From Stanieria sp. NIES-3757 (GTDB lineage Bacteria > Cyanobacteriota > Cyanobacteriia > Cyanobacteriales > Xenococcaceae), in assembly GCA_002355455.1 (NCBI GenBank), contig AP017375.1, forward strand, positions 4,455,640 to 4,519,639: DNA of 64,000 bases. The letters run 5' to 3'. Below the pieces are notes generated by a model, which saw nothing but the letters and a program-made list of their open reading frames with translations, had not been told where the DNA came from and did not search any database. This document shows, piece after piece, positions 37,656-44,335 of this stretch (position 1 is its first letter; each line of letters begins with the position of its first letter). The position numbers and the translations under genes are program-made.

Positions 37656-39113
37656 ATGACTAGCACTCCTTTAAATTGTAGTAATCATCACAACAAAGAG
37701 ACAACATCTCAACCATTAGTTGAGTTAAATTTGTCTGGAGTATTTTCTTCTTTAAAAGTATCTCAATGTCTTAATCCTCAATGTCTCAAGCTTAATCAGG
37801 AAAAATCAGAATTTTGTCAAGTTTGTGGTCACAAATTATTCCTACAAGAGCGTTATCGAGCAATCAAATATCTTAGTCAAGGAGGATTTTCTCATACTTT
37901 TATCGGTGTAGACAAACTTAACTGCAATCGTGTTTGTTTGATTAAACAATTTGATCGACAAGTTGTTATTAAAGCAGAAATTTTAGGTGAGAGAGAAGCA
38001 GAAATTTTAAAATATTTGGGAGATCACCCAAAAATACCTAATTTACTAGCTTTTTTTGTTCACGAAAATCAAGTTTATTTGATTGCTGAATTAATTACAG
38101 GTCAAAATTTATTACAAGTACAACAGCAAGCAGGATATTTTAGTCAATCGCAAGTCATCAATATTTTAAATAAACTGTTACCTGTTTTAGAATTTATTCA
38201 TCAACGCCAAGTAATTCATCGAGATATCAAACCTAGTAATATTATTTATCGAGAAGATCAATCTGTAGCCTTGATTGATTTTGGTAGTTCTATCTTTTTA
38301 AAATCTAAGTTTCAGCACTTTACGCCTATTGCAGGTACACCAGGTTATGCAGCACCAGAGCAATTACAAGGTCAAGTATATCCTGCGAGCGACCTTTATA
38401 GTTTAGGTGTAACGACTTGGCAACTGTTAACAGGGATAATGCCACCAGAAACAGGAATAACGGATAAATGGATTTGGCAATCTAACGATCTTGCTCTTGA
38501 TCGAAATTTTACTCAGATTATCACTAAATTACTTCAACCGAATTGGCGCGATCGCTATCAGTCAGCAACGGAAGTGTTAGATGCTTTATCAACCTTAATG
38601 CCTCAATCAAACCAAATTGAGATTTTAAATCATAATTTTTCTGAAACTAACTATCAACAATTAAAAGATTTGTTAGCTCAACAAAACTATCAAGAAGCCG
38701 AACAAGTAACTTGGCAATTAATTCTAAAACTTGCTCAAAGAGAAGTCCAAGGTTGTTTAAATTTAACTGCGATTAATAATTTACCTATTGCTCAATTAAA
38801 AATTATTGATTTGCTCTGGCGCAATTATAGTCGCGATCGCTTTGGTTTTTCTGTTCAAAAAAGAATTTATCAAAATTTATTAGCTGCAACACAATTAGAT
38901 TATCTTGGTTGGCAAAAATTTGCTCAACAAGTTGGATGGTATCAACAAGAACAATGGTTAAATTATGCTCAATTAAATTTTACCAATCAAGCACCAATCG
39001 GACATTTACCTGTTTGTTTGATTGATGTGTTTAATCGTGGTGGAATTAACCGTCATGTTTGTGGTTGGTGGCGTACTGGTTTTTTAACTTTCATGGAAAA
39101 AATAATTTTTTAA
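37656..39113 (+). CDS. Ser/Thr kinase fused to a GUN4 domain
   Basis: 485 residues. An N-terminal zinc-ribbon-like cluster has Cys38, Cys43, Cys54 and Cys57. The protein kinase domain (about 65-315) has IKQFD lysine, the catalytic loop HRDIKPSN (188-195), DFG (208-210) and GTPGYAAPEQ. A GUN4 domain (about 330-475) follows: LKDLLAQQNYQEAEQVTW, DLLWRNYSRDRFGFSVQKRIYQ and GHLP. GUN4 binds Mg-protoporphyrin and protoporphyrin and stimulates Mg-chelatase, so this may be a porphyrin-sensing kinase. It is a cytoplasmic protein by sequence. It is followed after 16 bases by the GAF receptor gene, so the two are probably co-transcribed. Confidence 0.9.
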   Translation: MTSTPLNCSNHHNKETTSQPLVELNLSGVFSSLKVSQCLNPQCLKLNQEKSEFCQVCGHKLFLQERYRAIKYLSQGGFSHTFIGVDKLNCNRVCLIKQFDRQVVIKAEILGEREAEILKYLGDHPKIPNLLAFFVHENQVYLIAELITGQNLLQVQQQAGYFSQSQVINILNKLLPVLEFIHQRQVIHRDIKPSNIIYREDQSVALIDFGSSIFLKSKFQHFTPIAGTPGYAAPEQLQGQVYPASDLYSLGVTTWQLLTGIMPPETGITDKWIWQSNDLALDRNFTQIITKLLQPNWRDRYQSATEVLDALSTLMPQSNQIEILNHNFSETNYQQLKDLLAQQNYQEAEQVTWQLILKLAQREVQGCLNLTAINNLPIAQLKIIDLLWRNYSRDRFGFSVQKRIYQNLLAATQLDYLGWQKFAQQVGWYQQEQWLNYAQLNFTNQAPIGHLPVCLIDVFNRGGINRHVCGWWRTGFLTFMEKIIF

Positions 39114-39129
39114 ATCAATTAATAATTTT

Positions 39130-41832
39130 ATGAAAACGAATTTAACTTCTAAATCTAATATTTTGATTAGTAAAAACTGGAGTTATAAAAAAAGATTAGC
39201 TGGAATTATGTTGGCACTCAGTATTCTTCCAGTCTTAATTTTTGGTGTACTTACTTATATAAAAACTCAATCAATTAATCAGCAAATTCAACCATTATTA
39301 AGCTCAACAGAGCTGGAAAAAATAAAAACAGATTTGGTGAAACAATCCTTTTGGCTATTAACTGCGACAGTTATGATTACAGGATTATCTGGAACTCTTG
39401 CTTTGATTTTAGCAGAATATATTTTTCGTCCAATTTTACAAGTCAAAAAAATTTCTCAAAAAGTAATTAAACAATTAAATCCTGAAAACAATTCTAATTT
39501 ACAACAAGATGAATTAATAGCTTTAGAAAGTAATCTTTATGCCATTGAACAACAACTTTCAGGTTTGCTTTGGCAACAAGAAGCAGAAAATGAACGTTTT
39601 CAATTAATCATTAAAATTATTCAGCGTCTTCAACAATCTCGTTCAGTTACAGAAGTTTTTACTCAAACATCAGAAGCAATTCGTCATACTTTTCAAGTAG
39701 AGCGAGTAGCAATTTTATATTTCAATGGAGAAAACAATATTACAGTTGTTGCCGAATCAGTAGCTGCTAATTTACCTAAAATTATTTGGACAGATTTAGC
39801 TCAGTCTTTATTTGAACCAGAAGATTTAGAAACTTTTCGTCAAGGAAAAATTCGTGCTATTGATGATATTTATCAAGCTGACTTGAGCGATCACTATGTT
39901 AATATCTTAACCAAATTTGCTGTTAAAGCTAACTTAATTGCACCTTTAATTAAAGATGAAAAATTATTTGGTTTATTAATTATCCATCAATGTTCTTATC
40001 CCCGTCATTGGCAAGCTAAAGAAATTGATTTAATTAGTCGCATCACCAGTCAAGTTGGTTTTGCTTTCAACTATGCTAATTTACTAGAAGAATTAGATTT
40101 AAGAGCTACTCGTTCTCAACAATTTATTGAACTGAGTCGTCAAATTCGCGATGCTTTAACTGAAGAAGAAATTTTTAAAGTTACTGTCGAACAAATACGA
40201 AAACTACTAACCAGCGATCGCGTGATGGTTTACACTTTCGACCGAGATTGGTATGGTACAGTAGTAGCCGAATCAGTTTTACCAGGCTTTTCTAAAGCTC
40301 TTTGGGCAGGTATCAAAGATCCTTGTTTTGCCGAAGGTTACGTGGAAAAATACCAAGCTGGCAGAATGCAGGTAATTAATAATGTCAACGAAGCAGGATT
40401 AAATCCTTGTCATGTCAAGCAATTAGAACCTTATGAGGTTAAAGCTAACTTAGTTGCCCCAATTTTGAAAGAAAATCAGCTATTTGGTTTATTAATCGCT
40501 CATCAATGTTCTGCACCCCGTAACTGGCAATCTTCTGAAATCGATCTATTTAAACAAGTTGCTACTCAAGTTGGTTTTGCGTTAGATCGAGCGAGATTAT
40601 TGCAAAGACTAGATACAGAAATCAAACACAATCAATTATTAGCTAATCTGACTCGTTCAATTCGAGCCTTACTTGTCGAAGAGCAAATCCTCAATATCAC
40701 AGTAACAGAAGTTCGGAAAGCAATCAACAGCGATCGCGTGATGATTTACAGTTTCGACCAAGATTGGTATGGTACAGTAGTGGCCGAATCAGTCTTACCA
40801 GGTTTTCCTAAAGCTCTCTGGGCAGAAATAAAAGATCCTTGTTTTGCCGAAGGTTACGTGGAAAAATACCAAGCTGGCAGAATGCAGATAATTAGTAATA
40901 TTGACGAAGCAGAATTAACTCCTTGTCATCGTCAGCAATTAGAACCTTACGGCGTTAAAGCCAACTTAGTTGTCCCAATTCTCAAAGATAATCAATTATT
41001 TGGCTTATTAATTGCTCATCAATGTACTCAACCACGCTCTTGGGAATCATGGGAAATTAATTTTTTCTCCCAAGTTGCTTTACAAGTAGGATTTGCTCTC
41101 GAACATTCGAGATTATTACAACAAGCAGAAAATTTGGCTCAACAACAAAACCAGCAAAAACAAGCTCTGCAACAACAAGTCTCCAATCTACTTTATCAAG
41201 CAGAATCGATTCAAATTATTTACGAACAGACTCAAATTTTAATTAATACTTTAGTCAATCTCCAAGCTACTGTCAAACAAATTGAAACAGAAGCACAACA
41301 ATGGCAAAAAAATTTTACTGCGATCGCAAATATTTTTCAGCAGAAATTAGCTTTAGAAGTTAATACTGTCGCAACCTTGAATCAACTTCAAAGTCTCAAA
41401 GATTCATTACCTCAACTAATTCAAATTATCAAAAATGCAAACGATACTACTGCTCAAATTAAAGTGCAAGGAATGAATGGTGTTATTGAAACAGCTCGTA
41501 GCCAAGCTAATTCTGAAACTTTAGCAACTATTTATCAAAAAATCCATAGTTTAGCCAAACAAGTAGAACAAAACTTTAGTCAGATACAACCAACTCTAAG
41601 TTCTTGGCAATTAAAACTAGAAGAAGCAACTAATACTCTCTCAACTAATCTGACCTCTACCGATCTTGAACAGTTGGAACAACAAACAGAACAAAACATA
41701 CAAGATTTTACTAGTGTTGGCGAGCAAATAAAAACTTCACTAGCTTATTTATCACAAAGTTCTCAACAACAAATAGAAGCTTTGAATATTCTTAAAGATA
41801 CAATTGGAGTAATTAAACAGCTACTTAATTAA
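39130..41832 (+). CDS. Membrane receptor with tandem DXCF cyanobacteriochrome GAFs
   Basis: 900 residues. Two membrane helices (about 24-44 and 75-97) bracket a very short outer loop; HAMP follows, then three GAF domains (about 165-320, 340-490, 512-665). GAF2 has DPCF with Cys399 and PCH with Cys427; GAF3 has Cys571 and Cys599. The 28-residue spacing equals that of the TePixJ pair (Cys494/Cys522), which form blue/green photoreceptors. GAF1 lacks both (DHY in place of CH). The C-terminal 220 residues are coiled coil, with a degraded methyl-accepting signalling tip near MNGVIETARSQ. This looks like a PixJ-type light receptor with an eroded output domain. ATG start 16 bases after the GUN4-kinase gene. 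Confidence 0.88.
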   Translation: MKTNLTSKSNILISKNWSYKKRLAGIMLALSILPVLIFGVLTYIKTQSINQQIQPLLSSTELEKIKTDLVKQSFWLLTATVMITGLSGTLALILAEYIFRPILQVKKISQKVIKQLNPENNSNLQQDELIALESNLYAIEQQLSGLLWQQEAENERFQLIIKIIQRLQQSRSVTEVFTQTSEAIRHTFQVERVAILYFNGENNITVVAESVAANLPKIIWTDLAQSLFEPEDLETFRQGKIRAIDDIYQADLSDHYVNILTKFAVKANLIAPLIKDEKLFGLLIIHQCSYPRHWQAKEIDLISRITSQVGFAFNYANLLEELDLRATRSQQFIELSRQIRDALTEEEIFKVTVEQIRKLLTSDRVMVYTFDRDWYGTVVAESVLPGFSKALWAGIKDPCFAEGYVEKYQAGRMQVINNVNEAGLNPCHVKQLEPYEVKANLVAPILKENQLFGLLIAHQCSAPRNWQSSEIDLFKQVATQVGFALDRARLLQRLDTEIKHNQLLANLTRSIRALLVEEQILNITVTEVRKAINSDRVMIYSFDQDWYGTVVAESVLPGFPKALWAEIKDPCFAEGYVEKYQAGRMQIISNIDEAELTPCHRQQLEPYGVKANLVVPILKDNQLFGLLIAHQCTQPRSWESWEINFFSQVALQVGFALEHSRLLQQAENLAQQQNQQKQALQQQVSNLLYQAESIQIIYEQTQILINTLVNLQATVKQIETEAQQWQKNFTAIANIFQQKLALEVNTVATLNQLQSLKDSLPQLIQIIKNANDTTAQIKVQGMNGVIETARSQANSETLATIYQKIHSLAKQVEQNFSQIQPTLSSWQLKLEEATNTLSTNLTSTDLEQLEQQTEQNIQDFTSVGEQIKTSLAYLSQSSQQQIEALNILKDTIGVIKQLLN
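40318..40930 (+). repeat. Near-identical direct repeat between GAF2 and GAF3
   Basis: The stretch beginning at 40318 is repeated almost base for base at 40834, 516 bases (172 codons) later; both start GATCCTTGTTTTGCCGAAGG. It spans the DPCF motif and the following helix. Base identity, beyond protein similarity, suggests recent duplication or gene conversion. Confidence 0.75.
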
Positions 41833-41984
41833 ATTATTTTTGGTAATAGTTATAAGACAGGAGATTTTTAGCTATTTTGTCATTAAAATAGTTGCTTTTA
41901 TTTTATTACTTGTTAAATTCAAATTTTTAAAAATTAGATATGGATGCACTAAGTTTATAATTTCAACTTTTAAATAATTGCTAT

Positions 41985-43235
41985 ATGAATGAGGAATATG
42001 TTCTTTTTTTAGAAGAAAGCTTAGAAAGCTTACCTTTTATCTATACTAAATTAAAACAATTATCTAACCATTACTCTTTTGATTTATTAAGTGAATTAGA
42101 AGAAATAGTCAACCAATTAGCAACCAAAGCTCAACAAGAGCAATTAATTGAAATTAAAAATTGTCTGAAAAAAATTGAACTGTTAAATAGTTTCAGTCAA
42201 GAATCTCAAACTCCAAATCAAAAATCTAATCTCATTAAACAACTTTGGCAAGCCTACACTAATTTTAAACAATATCTCATCAAAAATTTAAGCCAATCCG
42301 ATTCAGGTAAGGCAGGAATCCTAGCTCAAGGAGAATCATTTGTTGGGTTAATTTCACCACTCATTCAAGTTAGCGAGATTGAGTTATTTCAAGAAATTTG
42401 GCATAAAGATGTAACTCCTATTCTTAATTATCTCGAAACCGCCCATAATAATTCTAACCAAGAACAACTTACCCCTATCTTTCATCAACAAGCCGAAATA
42501 TTACTTGGTTTAGGAGAATTATTAGAAATTGCTGATTTGATTACAATTACTCAAATTGCGAGCGCTCTCCAACAATCCTATCCGCAAGCAACTCACTTAA
42601 TTGTCAAAAGGACTTTAGCTAGTTGGCGAACTGCACAAGATGCTTATTTTCAGTTATTAAATCCTAATTTAGAGTTAGAAGAAGAAAATAAAATCGATCT
42701 GTTTGATAACGCAGAAATTATTGATGAGACTGCATCAATAACAATAACAAAGCCACTCTTACATAGATTAGAAAAATATCCCAAAACTTCTACAATTAAT
42801 ACAACTAATTTTTTACTTTGGTTAGCAGGTACAAATTTATTTCTACTCCCAGCAGAGCAAATTCAAGAAATAGTTAATCTTTTCCCCGAACAAATCATTG
42901 ATTCTCATGAGCAAATCTTTTTCAACTGGCAAGCGCAGTTAATTCCTTGTCTTCAATTATCTCAATTAATTAAATATAATTATTATCCTCTCAATCGAGT
43001 CAGTAATAACTCTACTACTTCTTCTTTATCTCAGATCGTAATTCTAAAACAAAACCAGAAATTTCTTGCCGTAGAGATTGAAGTTGAACAACTGCTCGTT
43101 ATCCCAGAATTGACTTTACAACATTTTAATCCAATCTTGACAACACCTACTTATCTACTTGGTTGCACAGTGCTAGAAAATGAACGTTTATTTGCGATCA
43201 TCGAAGTTTTAAATTTATTAGCAAATCATTTCTAA
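41985..43235 (+). CDS. CheW-domain protein without kinase core
   Basis: 416 residues. The N-terminal 240 are helical, in the general position of CheA Hpt/P2 regions, but no phosphorylatable HTLKG-type histidine motif is seen. There is no HATPase N/G box. The C-terminal 140 residues form a CheW-like domain (NFLLWLAGTNLFLLPAEQIQEIV, then LAVEIEVEQLLVIPELT and GCTVLENERLFAIIEVLNLL). It could couple a receptor to a kinase elsewhere, or be a degenerate CheA. It lies 152 bases after the GAF receptor gene. Its stop overlaps the stop of the convergent gene by four bases. Confidence 0.75.
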   Translation: MNEEYVLFLEESLESLPFIYTKLKQLSNHYSFDLLSELEEIVNQLATKAQQEQLIEIKNCLKKIELLNSFSQESQTPNQKSNLIKQLWQAYTNFKQYLIKNLSQSDSGKAGILAQGESFVGLISPLIQVSEIELFQEIWHKDVTPILNYLETAHNNSNQEQLTPIFHQQAEILLGLGELLEIADLITITQIASALQQSYPQATHLIVKRTLASWRTAQDAYFQLLNPNLELEEENKIDLFDNAEIIDETASITITKPLLHRLEKYPKTSTINTTNFLLWLAGTNLFLLPAEQIQEIVNLFPEQIIDSHEQIFFNWQAQLIPCLQLSQLIKYNYYPLNRVSNNSTTSSLSQIVILKQNQKFLAVEIEVEQLLVIPELTLQHFNPILTTPTYLLGCTVLENERLFAIIEVLNLLANHF

Positions 43236-44335
43236 GTTAATAAATCTAGCTGTCGCTTAATCTGTTCCTGAATTTGCTGCAAAGAAGCTACATCATCTAA
43301 ATAAAAAGGATTATTTTGCTTAAATTCTCTAATTTGTTGCAATTTTTGTTCTAATTTTTTAGCTAGATCTAAAGCTTGCTCTTCCCATTCCTTGATTTGT
43401 CTGCGTTGATACAACTCTAAAGCTTTACCACGCAAAATTTGGATCGTTGCTTCCTCACCATATTCTCCAGGATGAATTCGCCAACGGATGAGCAACTTTT
43501 CTTCTTGATAACAACGTTCTAACTCTCCCTGCTGTACTTTTGCCAGTGGTAGAGTAGGCAACCCAGCAAATTTTTTAAACTCAAGTAAAACCCCTTGAAA
43601 TATTTTTAACTCTAGAGAATCAAAAGATAATTTTAAAGCTCCATTTTGACTCCAAAGCACTCTTCCACAGTTAGCTAATCTTTCAAAATAAAGTCTACCA
43701 ATTCCTTCTTCCAAAACTCTTCCCAATAACTCTTGCCACAAGACTTGAGGAGGTAAAGCAGCCAAAAATTCGACAGGAGCAGATAAATAACGTGCTTTTA
43801 CTTCTATAGTAGAAATATTCTTGAGATAGCTTGCTTTAGAACCATTTTTGAGCAATTCCGCCTCAGAAGAGACAACTTGCTCGGTTATTTTTGGTAATTG
43901 TTCTGGAGCATTGATAATTAAAGTAGGTCTTTCTTGAATCGGTTGTTGAGGAATAGCAACACGCGATCTCGGCACAGCCGAGGCACTTCTGGAGCGCGAT
44001 TGACGAGAATGTTGAATATATGCTGAGAGAATTAATTGATGAGTATGAGCTTCAATGGGTTGCAAATGAAAATTCTCAACTTGACTACCACAAAACGAGC
44101 GAACTTGTTCTAAAGTATCATTTTGCTCTGGATTTACCATGCCTAAAGTGAGACATGTTTGATTTAACTCAAGGGGAACAACCTTATGAGATAAACAATA
44201 ACGAACAGGTAGTAAATTATCAATTAGCTCAAAAATCCGAGCAGGATTAGTTGTAGTTGGTTGGAATTTTTGCTTAAGTCTCTGAGTATTAGGTGATTGA
44301 GAATTAGACTGAGCTAAGTCTTGAGTGTAGGACAT
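43232..44335 (-). CDS. GspE/PilB N-domain-like protein
   Basis: 367 residues. Residues 28-115 (FELIDNLLPVRYCLSHKVVPLELNQTCLTLGMVNPEQND) resemble the N-terminal domain of type II secretion/type IV pilus ATPases, where a conserved 'plays the role of LxLAMxDP' segment occurs. No ATPase domain follows. A linker rich in Arg/Ser (about 115-140) derives partly from a palindromic repeat at 43968-43990. The remainder is helical with a C-terminal coiled coil (LEQKLQQIREFKQNN). Possibly a pilus-associated regulator, fitting a phototaxis theme with the neighbouring genes. That link is inference. Confidence 0.6.
   Translation of the reverse strand: MSYTQDLAQSNSQSPNTQRLKQKFQPTTTNPARIFELIDNLLPVRYCLSHKVVPLELNQTCLTLGMVNPEQNDTLEQVRSFCGSQVENFHLQPIEAHTHQLILSAYIQHSRQSRSRSASAVPRSRVAIPQQPIQERPTLIINAPEQLPKITEQVVSSEAELLKNGSKASYLKNISTIEVKARYLSAPVEFLAALPPQVLWQELLGRVLEEGIGRLYFERLANCGRVLWSQNGALKLSFDSLELKIFQGVLLEFKKFAGLPTLPLAKVQQGELERCYQEEKLLIRWRIHPGEYGEEATIQILRGKALELYQRRQIKEWEEQALDLAKKLEQKLQQIREFKQNNPFYLDDVASLQQIQEQIKRQLDLLT
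43968..43990. repeat. Hairpin repeat inside coding sequence
   Basis: CTCGGC-ACA-GCCGAG hairpin (43968-43982) continuing into GGCACTTC. The 14-mer AGCCGAGGCACTTC (43976-43989) recurs at 63626-63639 in intergenic DNA. It lies in frame in the Arg/Ser-rich linker of the surrounding gene. Confidence 0.6.

Follow-up and report, generated by a model that had tools for sequence, protein, structure and literature searches.

A gene neighbourhood kept in distant cyanobacteria suggests a light-signalling unit in which a GUN4-kinase may have taken over from a histidine kinase

Results

The window analysed here is a stretch of 64,000 nucleotides from Stanieria sp. NIES-3757 (assembly GCA_002355455.1, contig AP017375.1, positions 4,455,640 to 4,519,639 of the forward strand), a cyanobacterium whose genome consists of two contigs with 5,463,308 bases. 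Within it lie three plus-strand genes in a row (37656-39113, 39130-41832 and 41985-43235, with gaps of 16 and 152 bases) that encode a Ser/Thr kinase with a GUN4 domain, a receptor with GAF domains and an MCP (methyl-accepting chemotaxis protein)-like coil, and a protein with a CheW domain (Table 1). We refer to this arrangement as the triad and to its last member as the third gene or third protein; L and G numbers denote loci and genomes. A preliminary description of the three genes had suggested a common pathway of kinase and receptor that would integrate light and tetrapyrrole supply; the coordinates, strands and gaps that it gave are correct, as is its naming of the GUN4-kinase.

Table 1. 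Genes and protein features of the triad in the window.
Feature	Positions	Strand	Basis
Hanks-type Ser/Thr kinase with C-terminal GUN4 domain, 485 residues	37656-39113	+	HRD and DFG motifs intact; AlphaFold2 mean predicted local distance difference test (pLDDT) 78.5
Four-Cys prefix of kinase (C38, C43, C54, C57)	37767-37826	+	NCBIfam NF045510, 26.0 bits vs cut-off 24
Protein kinase domain, residues 68-312	37857-38591	+	Pfam PF00069 (Pkinase), 139.3 bits
GUN4 domain, residues 330-453	38643-39014	+	Pfam PF05419, 123.5 bits vs cut-off 29.2
Cyanobacteriochrome-type receptor with MCP-like coil, 900 residues	39130-41832	+	Pfam and alignment
Two hydrophobic, likely membrane-spanning stretches, residues 21-46 and 74-99, preceding the GAF domains	39190-39426	+	Hydropathy
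GAF1, about residues 171-314, chromophore cysteines absent	39640-40071	+	Alignment; no Cys motif
GAF2, residues 343-486, DPCF Cys399 and CH Cys427	40156-40587	+	Pfam, motif
GAF3, residues 518-657, DPCF Cys571 and CH Cys599	40681-41100	+	Pfam, motif
Degenerate MCP signalling coil, residues 749-895, tip around Asn783	41374-41814	+	MCPsignal 22.8 bits vs cut-off 34.6
CheA-derived scaffold without kinase core, 416 residues	41985-43235	+	CheW domain only; relatives are Hpt/CheW/REC-type proteins
Degenerate Hpt-like N-terminal helices, phospho-acceptor His absent	41985-42299	+	Alignments; helices from low-confidence model; no Pfam Hpt match
CheW domain, residues 277-413	42813-43223	+	Pfam PF01584, 39.9 bits vs cut-off 23.5

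The triad recurs in at least 15 genomes of six genera and three families, always in the same order and on the same strand. This total, like the counts of receptor and third-gene pairs below, is a lower bound, as the profile search with the third protein scored three candidates per genome and gave its best matches only, and the survey of named loci covered the best 80 of 528. In a set of 100 genomes (that of the window included) the third protein was matched at an E value of 1e-6 or better in 75, and, besides the window, near-full-length matches (residues 65-416) were obtained only in G005 and G010, two Xenococcaceae of genus g5 that carry kinase, receptor and third gene arranged as in the window; the remaining matches fell in the CheW domain, except for one short N-terminal match inside a CheA of G052. 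Among 388 genomes of the class, full-span matches came from G243 and from six members of genus g166; each of the six holds the triad, with the kinase truncated at the contig end in G319. A kinase profile used by sequence score alone picked G288 and G339, and then G629, G641, G668 and G679; in these the receptor adjoins the kinase in 6/6 and the third gene follows in 5/6, the contig of G339 ending first. By family, the triad is present in 3 of 27 Xenococcaceae, the family of the window, in 8 of 29 genomes of the Acaryochloris family (6/7 of the Acaryochloris genus and two relatives) and in four genomes of genus g248 of a third family. Kinase and receptor thus adjoin in 15/15 genomes and the third gene is next in all 14 where the contig allows, so that the neighbours, whose conservation in relatives was a check proposed by the preliminary description, are indeed kept. 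With each frame taken from its first start codon, kinase and receptor are separated by 16 to 346 bases and receptor and third gene by 9 to 799, while identity to the window proteins is 43-50% for the kinases (alignment A3), 34-47% for the receptors (alignment A5) and 23-34% for the third protein. The 799-base gap is that of L067 (G010), and a 135-residue MatE-like piece lies there, at L067:10396-10803 (-), between the receptor and the CheA-like gene.

Chance adjacency of the three genes is ruled out by their conservation in 15 genomes. Spread on plasmids or viruses was considered as well and found no support: a scan with the kinase alignment matched 29 viral stretches by pattern, none of which encodes a relative, and the receptor matches five plasmid records (E 1e-20) over at most 71% of its length, the best match alone having been examined. 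That match, L294, is a pix-type locus on pMIC7113.02 of Allocoleopsis franciscana PCC 7113, annotated as two response regulators, CheW, MCP, hybrid histidine kinase and CheW. The kinase is matched by 73 plasmid records, and in Stanieria cyanosphaera PCC 7437 (G001) a kinase match lies on plasmid NC_019765.1 (contig 4).

Phylogenetic analysis places the triad kinases in one clade (support 100/100 in a tree of 42 rows with 14 triads), recovered in 100% of 200 bootstrap trees; the contig-cut kinase of L105 was excluded, and the final tree was also built without stand-alone GUN4 proteins and those of the source genome. Among 18 GUN4-kinases outside this clade, 16 of them with downstream sequence, none has the receptor or the third gene nearby (L281 and L283 end at a contig edge downstream, and L244, L252 and L255 have only 1-1.6 kb there). 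The best 80 of 528 named loci contain triads in only three, in genomes already counted, and a further 13 with a GUN4-kinase have no receptor alongside; these 13 cannot be added to the 18 because the sets overlap (L120 is L249, and L119 appears to be L281). In L124 and L130, weak third-protein matches (53-71 bits) lie 3 kb or more from the kinase and are most likely receiver or CheW domains of other proteins.

The window kinase possesses the catalytic Lys as well as the HRD and DFG motifs of the kinase fold, the latter two being retained in 14/14 triad kinases checked, and a fold search with its model matched PknB (E 5e-18), the 50 matches listed being other kinases. All four cysteines of its prefix are invariant across eight aligned triad kinases. 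The GUN4 part is similar to GUN4 proteins of solved structure (E 7e-14 to 9e-9), and the triad kinases end in a C-terminal tail of their own (N/S-R ... WWR-x-GF, 14/14). At the place of residue 192 of chain 1y6i, Trp192 of Synechocystis GUN4, the window kinase has another aromatic residue, Tyr437, which does not vary among eight triad kinases; replacement of Trp192 by Ala is reported to alter porphyrin binding (PMC8967248). Six GUN4 matches were found in the source genome, in open frames of 233, 491, 197, 447, 603 and 466 residues, the last on the small contig C2.

In the receptor, the three GAF stretches score 200 bits in all (Pfam), and the DPCF and CH cysteines of GAF2 and GAF3 are 28 residues apart in each. 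The preliminary description had rightly recognised two bilin-type GAF domains in a membrane receptor and had overlooked the Cys-less GAF1. A DXCF-type GAF with DPCF and CH or CY, the cysteines again 28 apart, occurs in 15/15 triad receptors, and these motifs suggest that the receptors would bind bilin. Typical DXCF GAFs switch between blue and green with a chromophore made from phycocyanobilin (PMC11284453), and blue/green sensing would be expected of the triad receptors as members of this family.

The MCP-like coil of the window receptor is unusual for its genome: of 12 MCP domains found there, 11 score 130-155 bits and that of the receptor 27.5. Seven of the 11 canonical domains were caught by a motif search, the other four being unmatched by the pattern, and the tips of these seven resemble TNLLALNASIEAARAGE-G-GF, with variations. 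All 15 triad receptor tips keep the Asn, Glu and Arg of the canonical motif, residues known from E. coli work to have a role in receptor contacts, and TNLLALN has become KLQAMN or similar; the window, L066 and L067 receptors have also lost the Gly-rich part that follows. The coil exceeds the Pfam cut-off in L066 (58.3 bits), L068, L070, L104 and L110 (58.9 bits). In the window, L071 and L072 it stays under that cut-off, and for L073 no match is listed. Strong decay of the tip is not a trait of the whole family, because several relatives exceed the cut-off; for the window, the degraded chemotaxis-type tip of the preliminary description is real. Judged by these scores, the receptor family is MCP-like, with the strongest decay confined to some members.

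The third protein had been described as a CheW protein without kinase core. It does have a CheW domain, its best kept part, and no HATPase_c domain; it is better described as a CheA derivative without kinase core. About 270 residues ahead of the CheW domain align with the Hpt-containing part of its relatives and are predicted, with low confidence, to be mostly helical (the structure model, with a mean pLDDT of 44.9 from four sequences, is usable for helix positions alone). None of the 21 members of the third family, the window included, matches HATPase_c or H-kinase_dim at an E value of 0.01, and among CheA fragments of the source genome, scanned as a control, HATPase_c was found in 4/4 and H-kinase_dim in 3/4. 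Across the 21, CheW was matched in 18, a receiver domain in 16 and Hpt in 12.

The phospho-accepting His is replaced in 14/14 triads, with a weak alignment at the site for the window, L066 and L067: by Gln in seven (Acaryochloris genus and G288), by Ser in two and Asn in two of the four g248 triads, by Asp in L066 and L067, and by Asn in the window. A receiver domain with its Asp is fused to the third protein in 10/14 triads and is missing from the window, L066, L067 and L240, so that the earlier statement that the cluster has no response regulator applies to the window and does not extend to most triads.

Five genomes hold six pairs of receptor and CheA-like genes with no GUN4-kinase adjoining (L068 and L072, both in G049, L070, L071, L073 and L104), and one of the five, G010, also has a triad; L257 is not counted. 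In the receptor tree the 15 triads lie together with kinase-free L104 and L070 on one side of a 100/99 branch and the four other kinase-free pairs on the opposite side (the second receptor tree leaves out P_L257, a long branch). The His is kept in L068, L072 and L073 and replaced in L104, L070 and L071, and its region is absent from the third protein of L257. In the set examined, the GUN4-kinase is thus found only with His-less partners, and the third protein seems, from these alignments, to have begun as a CheA that lacked a kinase core but had His and receiver, and to have moved towards being a scaffold only. L070 is nested among the triads, and therefore the kinase has probably been lost there. 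No kinase in G068, G243, G049 or G074 scores like the triad clade, the best having an E value of 2e-119 (G068) as compared to 2e-188 or better for uncut triad kinases.

Some of these loci have features of their own. Directly upstream of the L070 pair (G068), in the position of the GUN4-kinase, lies a HisKA/HATPase histidine kinase of 451 residues (L070:1125-2480, +). In L068 and L072 (G049) and L073 (G074), multi-GAF receptors lie near Hpt-CheW-REC proteins that keep the Hpt His and have no kinase core, a second kinase-less CheA type that may be phosphorylated in trans. In L257, on contig 27 of the triad-bearing genome G288, a further CheA-like gene with REC adjoins an MCP-like gene that has neither the DXCF nor the CH motif.

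Around the triad of the window, a convergent gene for an MshEN-domain protein (367 residues, 43232-44335, -) overlaps the stop of the CheA-like gene by four bases. A pilus or cyclic di-GMP link is possible; the MshEN-domain protein has no match in the two Xenococcaceae triad loci, the only two triads compared. Promoter-like sites number 30, as compared to a shuffled mean of 24.9 (standard deviation 4.5), and terminator-like sites 5, as compared to 2.6 (standard deviation 1.5). An ordinary chemotaxis locus is ruled out, as the cluster contains neither a CheA core nor CheY. The preliminary description had also allowed that receptor and CheW protein might belong to a complete chemotaxis locus elsewhere; CheA genes with a HATPase core are present elsewhere in the genome, and both triad genes lie outside such loci.

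Discussion

Chemosensory systems are built around histidine phosphorylation by CheA. The neighbourhood described here, kept in several distant cyanobacteria, suggests one light-signalling unit in which a different kinase type may have taken over. That the three genes act together in some way is very probable. That they form one light-signalling module, with the light receptor acting through the CheW scaffold on the Ser/Thr kinase, is a narrower claim on which we are evenly divided. Under such a mechanism the membrane receptor would sense light through its DXCF cyanobacteriochrome GAFs, and the light-driven change would travel down the MCP-like coil to the CheW-domain scaffold, presumably within a physical complex. 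The scaffold would descend from a CheA that lost both its ATP-binding core and its phospho-accepting His, the module's own His-Asp chemistry being lost or failing, and the catalytic output would fall to the co-encoded Hanks-type kinase, whose substrate may be the scaffold, the receptor or a protein further downstream, such as one of pilus motility or pigment synthesis. This kinase would be gated by its GUN4 domain through porphyrin or bilin, and possibly also by redox through the four-Cys prefix.

Porphyrins (PMC8967248) and phycocyanobilin (PMC10151467) are both reported to be bound by GUN4. The porphyrin binding assumed in the preliminary description is an attribution by family, and the motifs shared with this family suggest that the GUN4 domain of the triad kinases may bind a ligand as well; it might sense phycocyanobilin, the chromophore precursor of the receptor itself. 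One could envision that a histidine kinase was replaced in evolution by a Hanks-type kinase that is gated by GUN4 and is driven or positioned by an MCP-coil photoreceptor together with a kinase-dead CheA scaffold, the cluster reading light, tetrapyrrole status and perhaps redox. This fullest version we offer tentatively, as possible rather than probable.

Several observations weigh against the light-signalling module with the Ser/Thr kinase as its output. The module is absent from Stanieria cyanosphaera (G001), the only other Stanieria genome searched, and from G282, a genome of the Acaryochloris genus that is 87% complete. Arg214 of canonical GUN4, a C-terminal Arg important for binding, has no unambiguous counterpart in the window kinase: Arg461 and Arg473 are candidates, both kept in 14 triad tails, and the loop of residues 458-471 is predicted with low confidence (R214 of Synechocystis GUN4 is presumably equivalent to R211 of Arabidopsis). 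Neither the triad receptors nor the third proteins form a clade of their own, three changes being needed for each. L104 and L070, inside the triad receptor clade, have no GUN4-kinase alongside and no triad-like kinase in their genomes, so that the pair may work without it; and because the His is also replaced in L104, L070 and L071, its loss is not tied to the kinase alone. Since 10/14 triads keep a receiver with its Asp, some His-Asp chemistry fed by another kinase may remain.

Other explanations must be weighed against the same data. Receptor and core-less CheA-like protein could join canonical chemoreceptor arrays, fill CheW or CheA positions and thereby dampen or retune phototaxis, with the GUN4-kinase tuning the array by Ser/Thr phosphorylation. 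The source genome could supply such arrays, as besides 18 additional CheW matches it has 11 canonical MCP domains and CheAs that contain a HATPase core; the CheW domain is what the third protein of the window has kept best, and one array can hold paralogous chemotaxis proteins (PMC6759762). However, divergence of the receptor tip runs through the family and sets it apart from the seven canonical tips of the source genome. This suggests a private partner rather than mixed trimers, and we consider the array explanation unlikely. We give still less weight to a CheA split in two, in which the CheA-like protein would be phosphorylated in trans by the kinase core of another CheA and its receiver would relay the signal. 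Precedents exist in CheA3/CheA4 of Rhodobacter sphaeroides (PMC6829392) and Hik36-Hik43 of Synechocystis (PMC7656254), and the pairs L068, L072 and L073, without GUN4-kinase, keep the Hpt His and a receiver. In the triads, however, the His is replaced in every case examined and the receiver is absent from four, the window included; action through the Hpt His is thus disfavoured for the window, and a split CheA may describe the ancestral pair rather than the triad.

Alternatively, the kinase and the receptor pair could be neighbours by descent that never act jointly, as the six kinase-free loci in five genomes and the absence of the module from the congeneric G001 might suggest. Adjacency, order and strand have nevertheless been kept in 15 genomes of six genera and three families despite low protein identity, and mere neighbourhood appears improbable to us. 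If the triad does work as a light-signalling module with the GUN4-kinase as its output, a chemoreceptor platform can couple to another kinase class. Kinase-GUN4 fusions, which have been known since 2005 but for which the literature searched names no tested input or partner, would gain a concrete candidate partner, and the triad would let one ask directly how light sensing is matched to tetrapyrrole supply in cyanobacteria.

Kinase-GUN4 fusions, PixJ-type receptors and the core-less CheAs of split systems are each known; their conserved union, with replacement of the His, was not found in the literature searched, nor was any link between GUN4-kinases and cyanobacteriochrome receptors, subscription papers being mostly outside the scope of that search. 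One of the nearest known systems is the PixJ1/TaxD1-type phototaxis system (tax1/pix of Synechocystis, ptx of filamentous cyanobacteria), whose membrane receptor is reported to have two membrane stretches at the N-terminus, GAFs of cyanobacteriochrome type and a C-terminus of MCP type, and to work with CheW-domain partners (PMC5812497). The triad has the same predicted make-up, but it has no kinase-core CheA and no separate CheW or CheY genes and instead combines a diverged MCP tip with a Ser/Thr kinase. With the split CheAs of R. sphaeroides (CheA3/CheA4) and Synechocystis (Hik36/Hik43) the triad scaffold has in common that it is a CheA-type protein without an ATP-binding core of its own, but the triads have neither the phospho-accepting His nor a kinase-core partner in the cluster.

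SpkB of Synechocystis, with which the triad kinase has a Cys-rich N-terminal extension in common, is not known to have a linked receptor. This Ser/Thr kinase with a redox-controlled Cys-rich prefix has been connected with motility in a paper that makes no mention of GUN4 (PMC10651672), whereas the triad kinase has such a domain. A kinase-GUN4 fusion of Nostoc PCC 7120, described in 2005, has been suggested to act in chlorophyll regulation (PMC1262709), and GUN4 has been proposed as a tetrapyrrole-gated regulator of the enzymes to which it is fused (PMC7159879). The triad kinases share the domain order of these cyanobacterial fusions but differ from the others in forming a separate clade, in their own C-terminal tail and in the receptor that adjoins them in every genome in which they were found.

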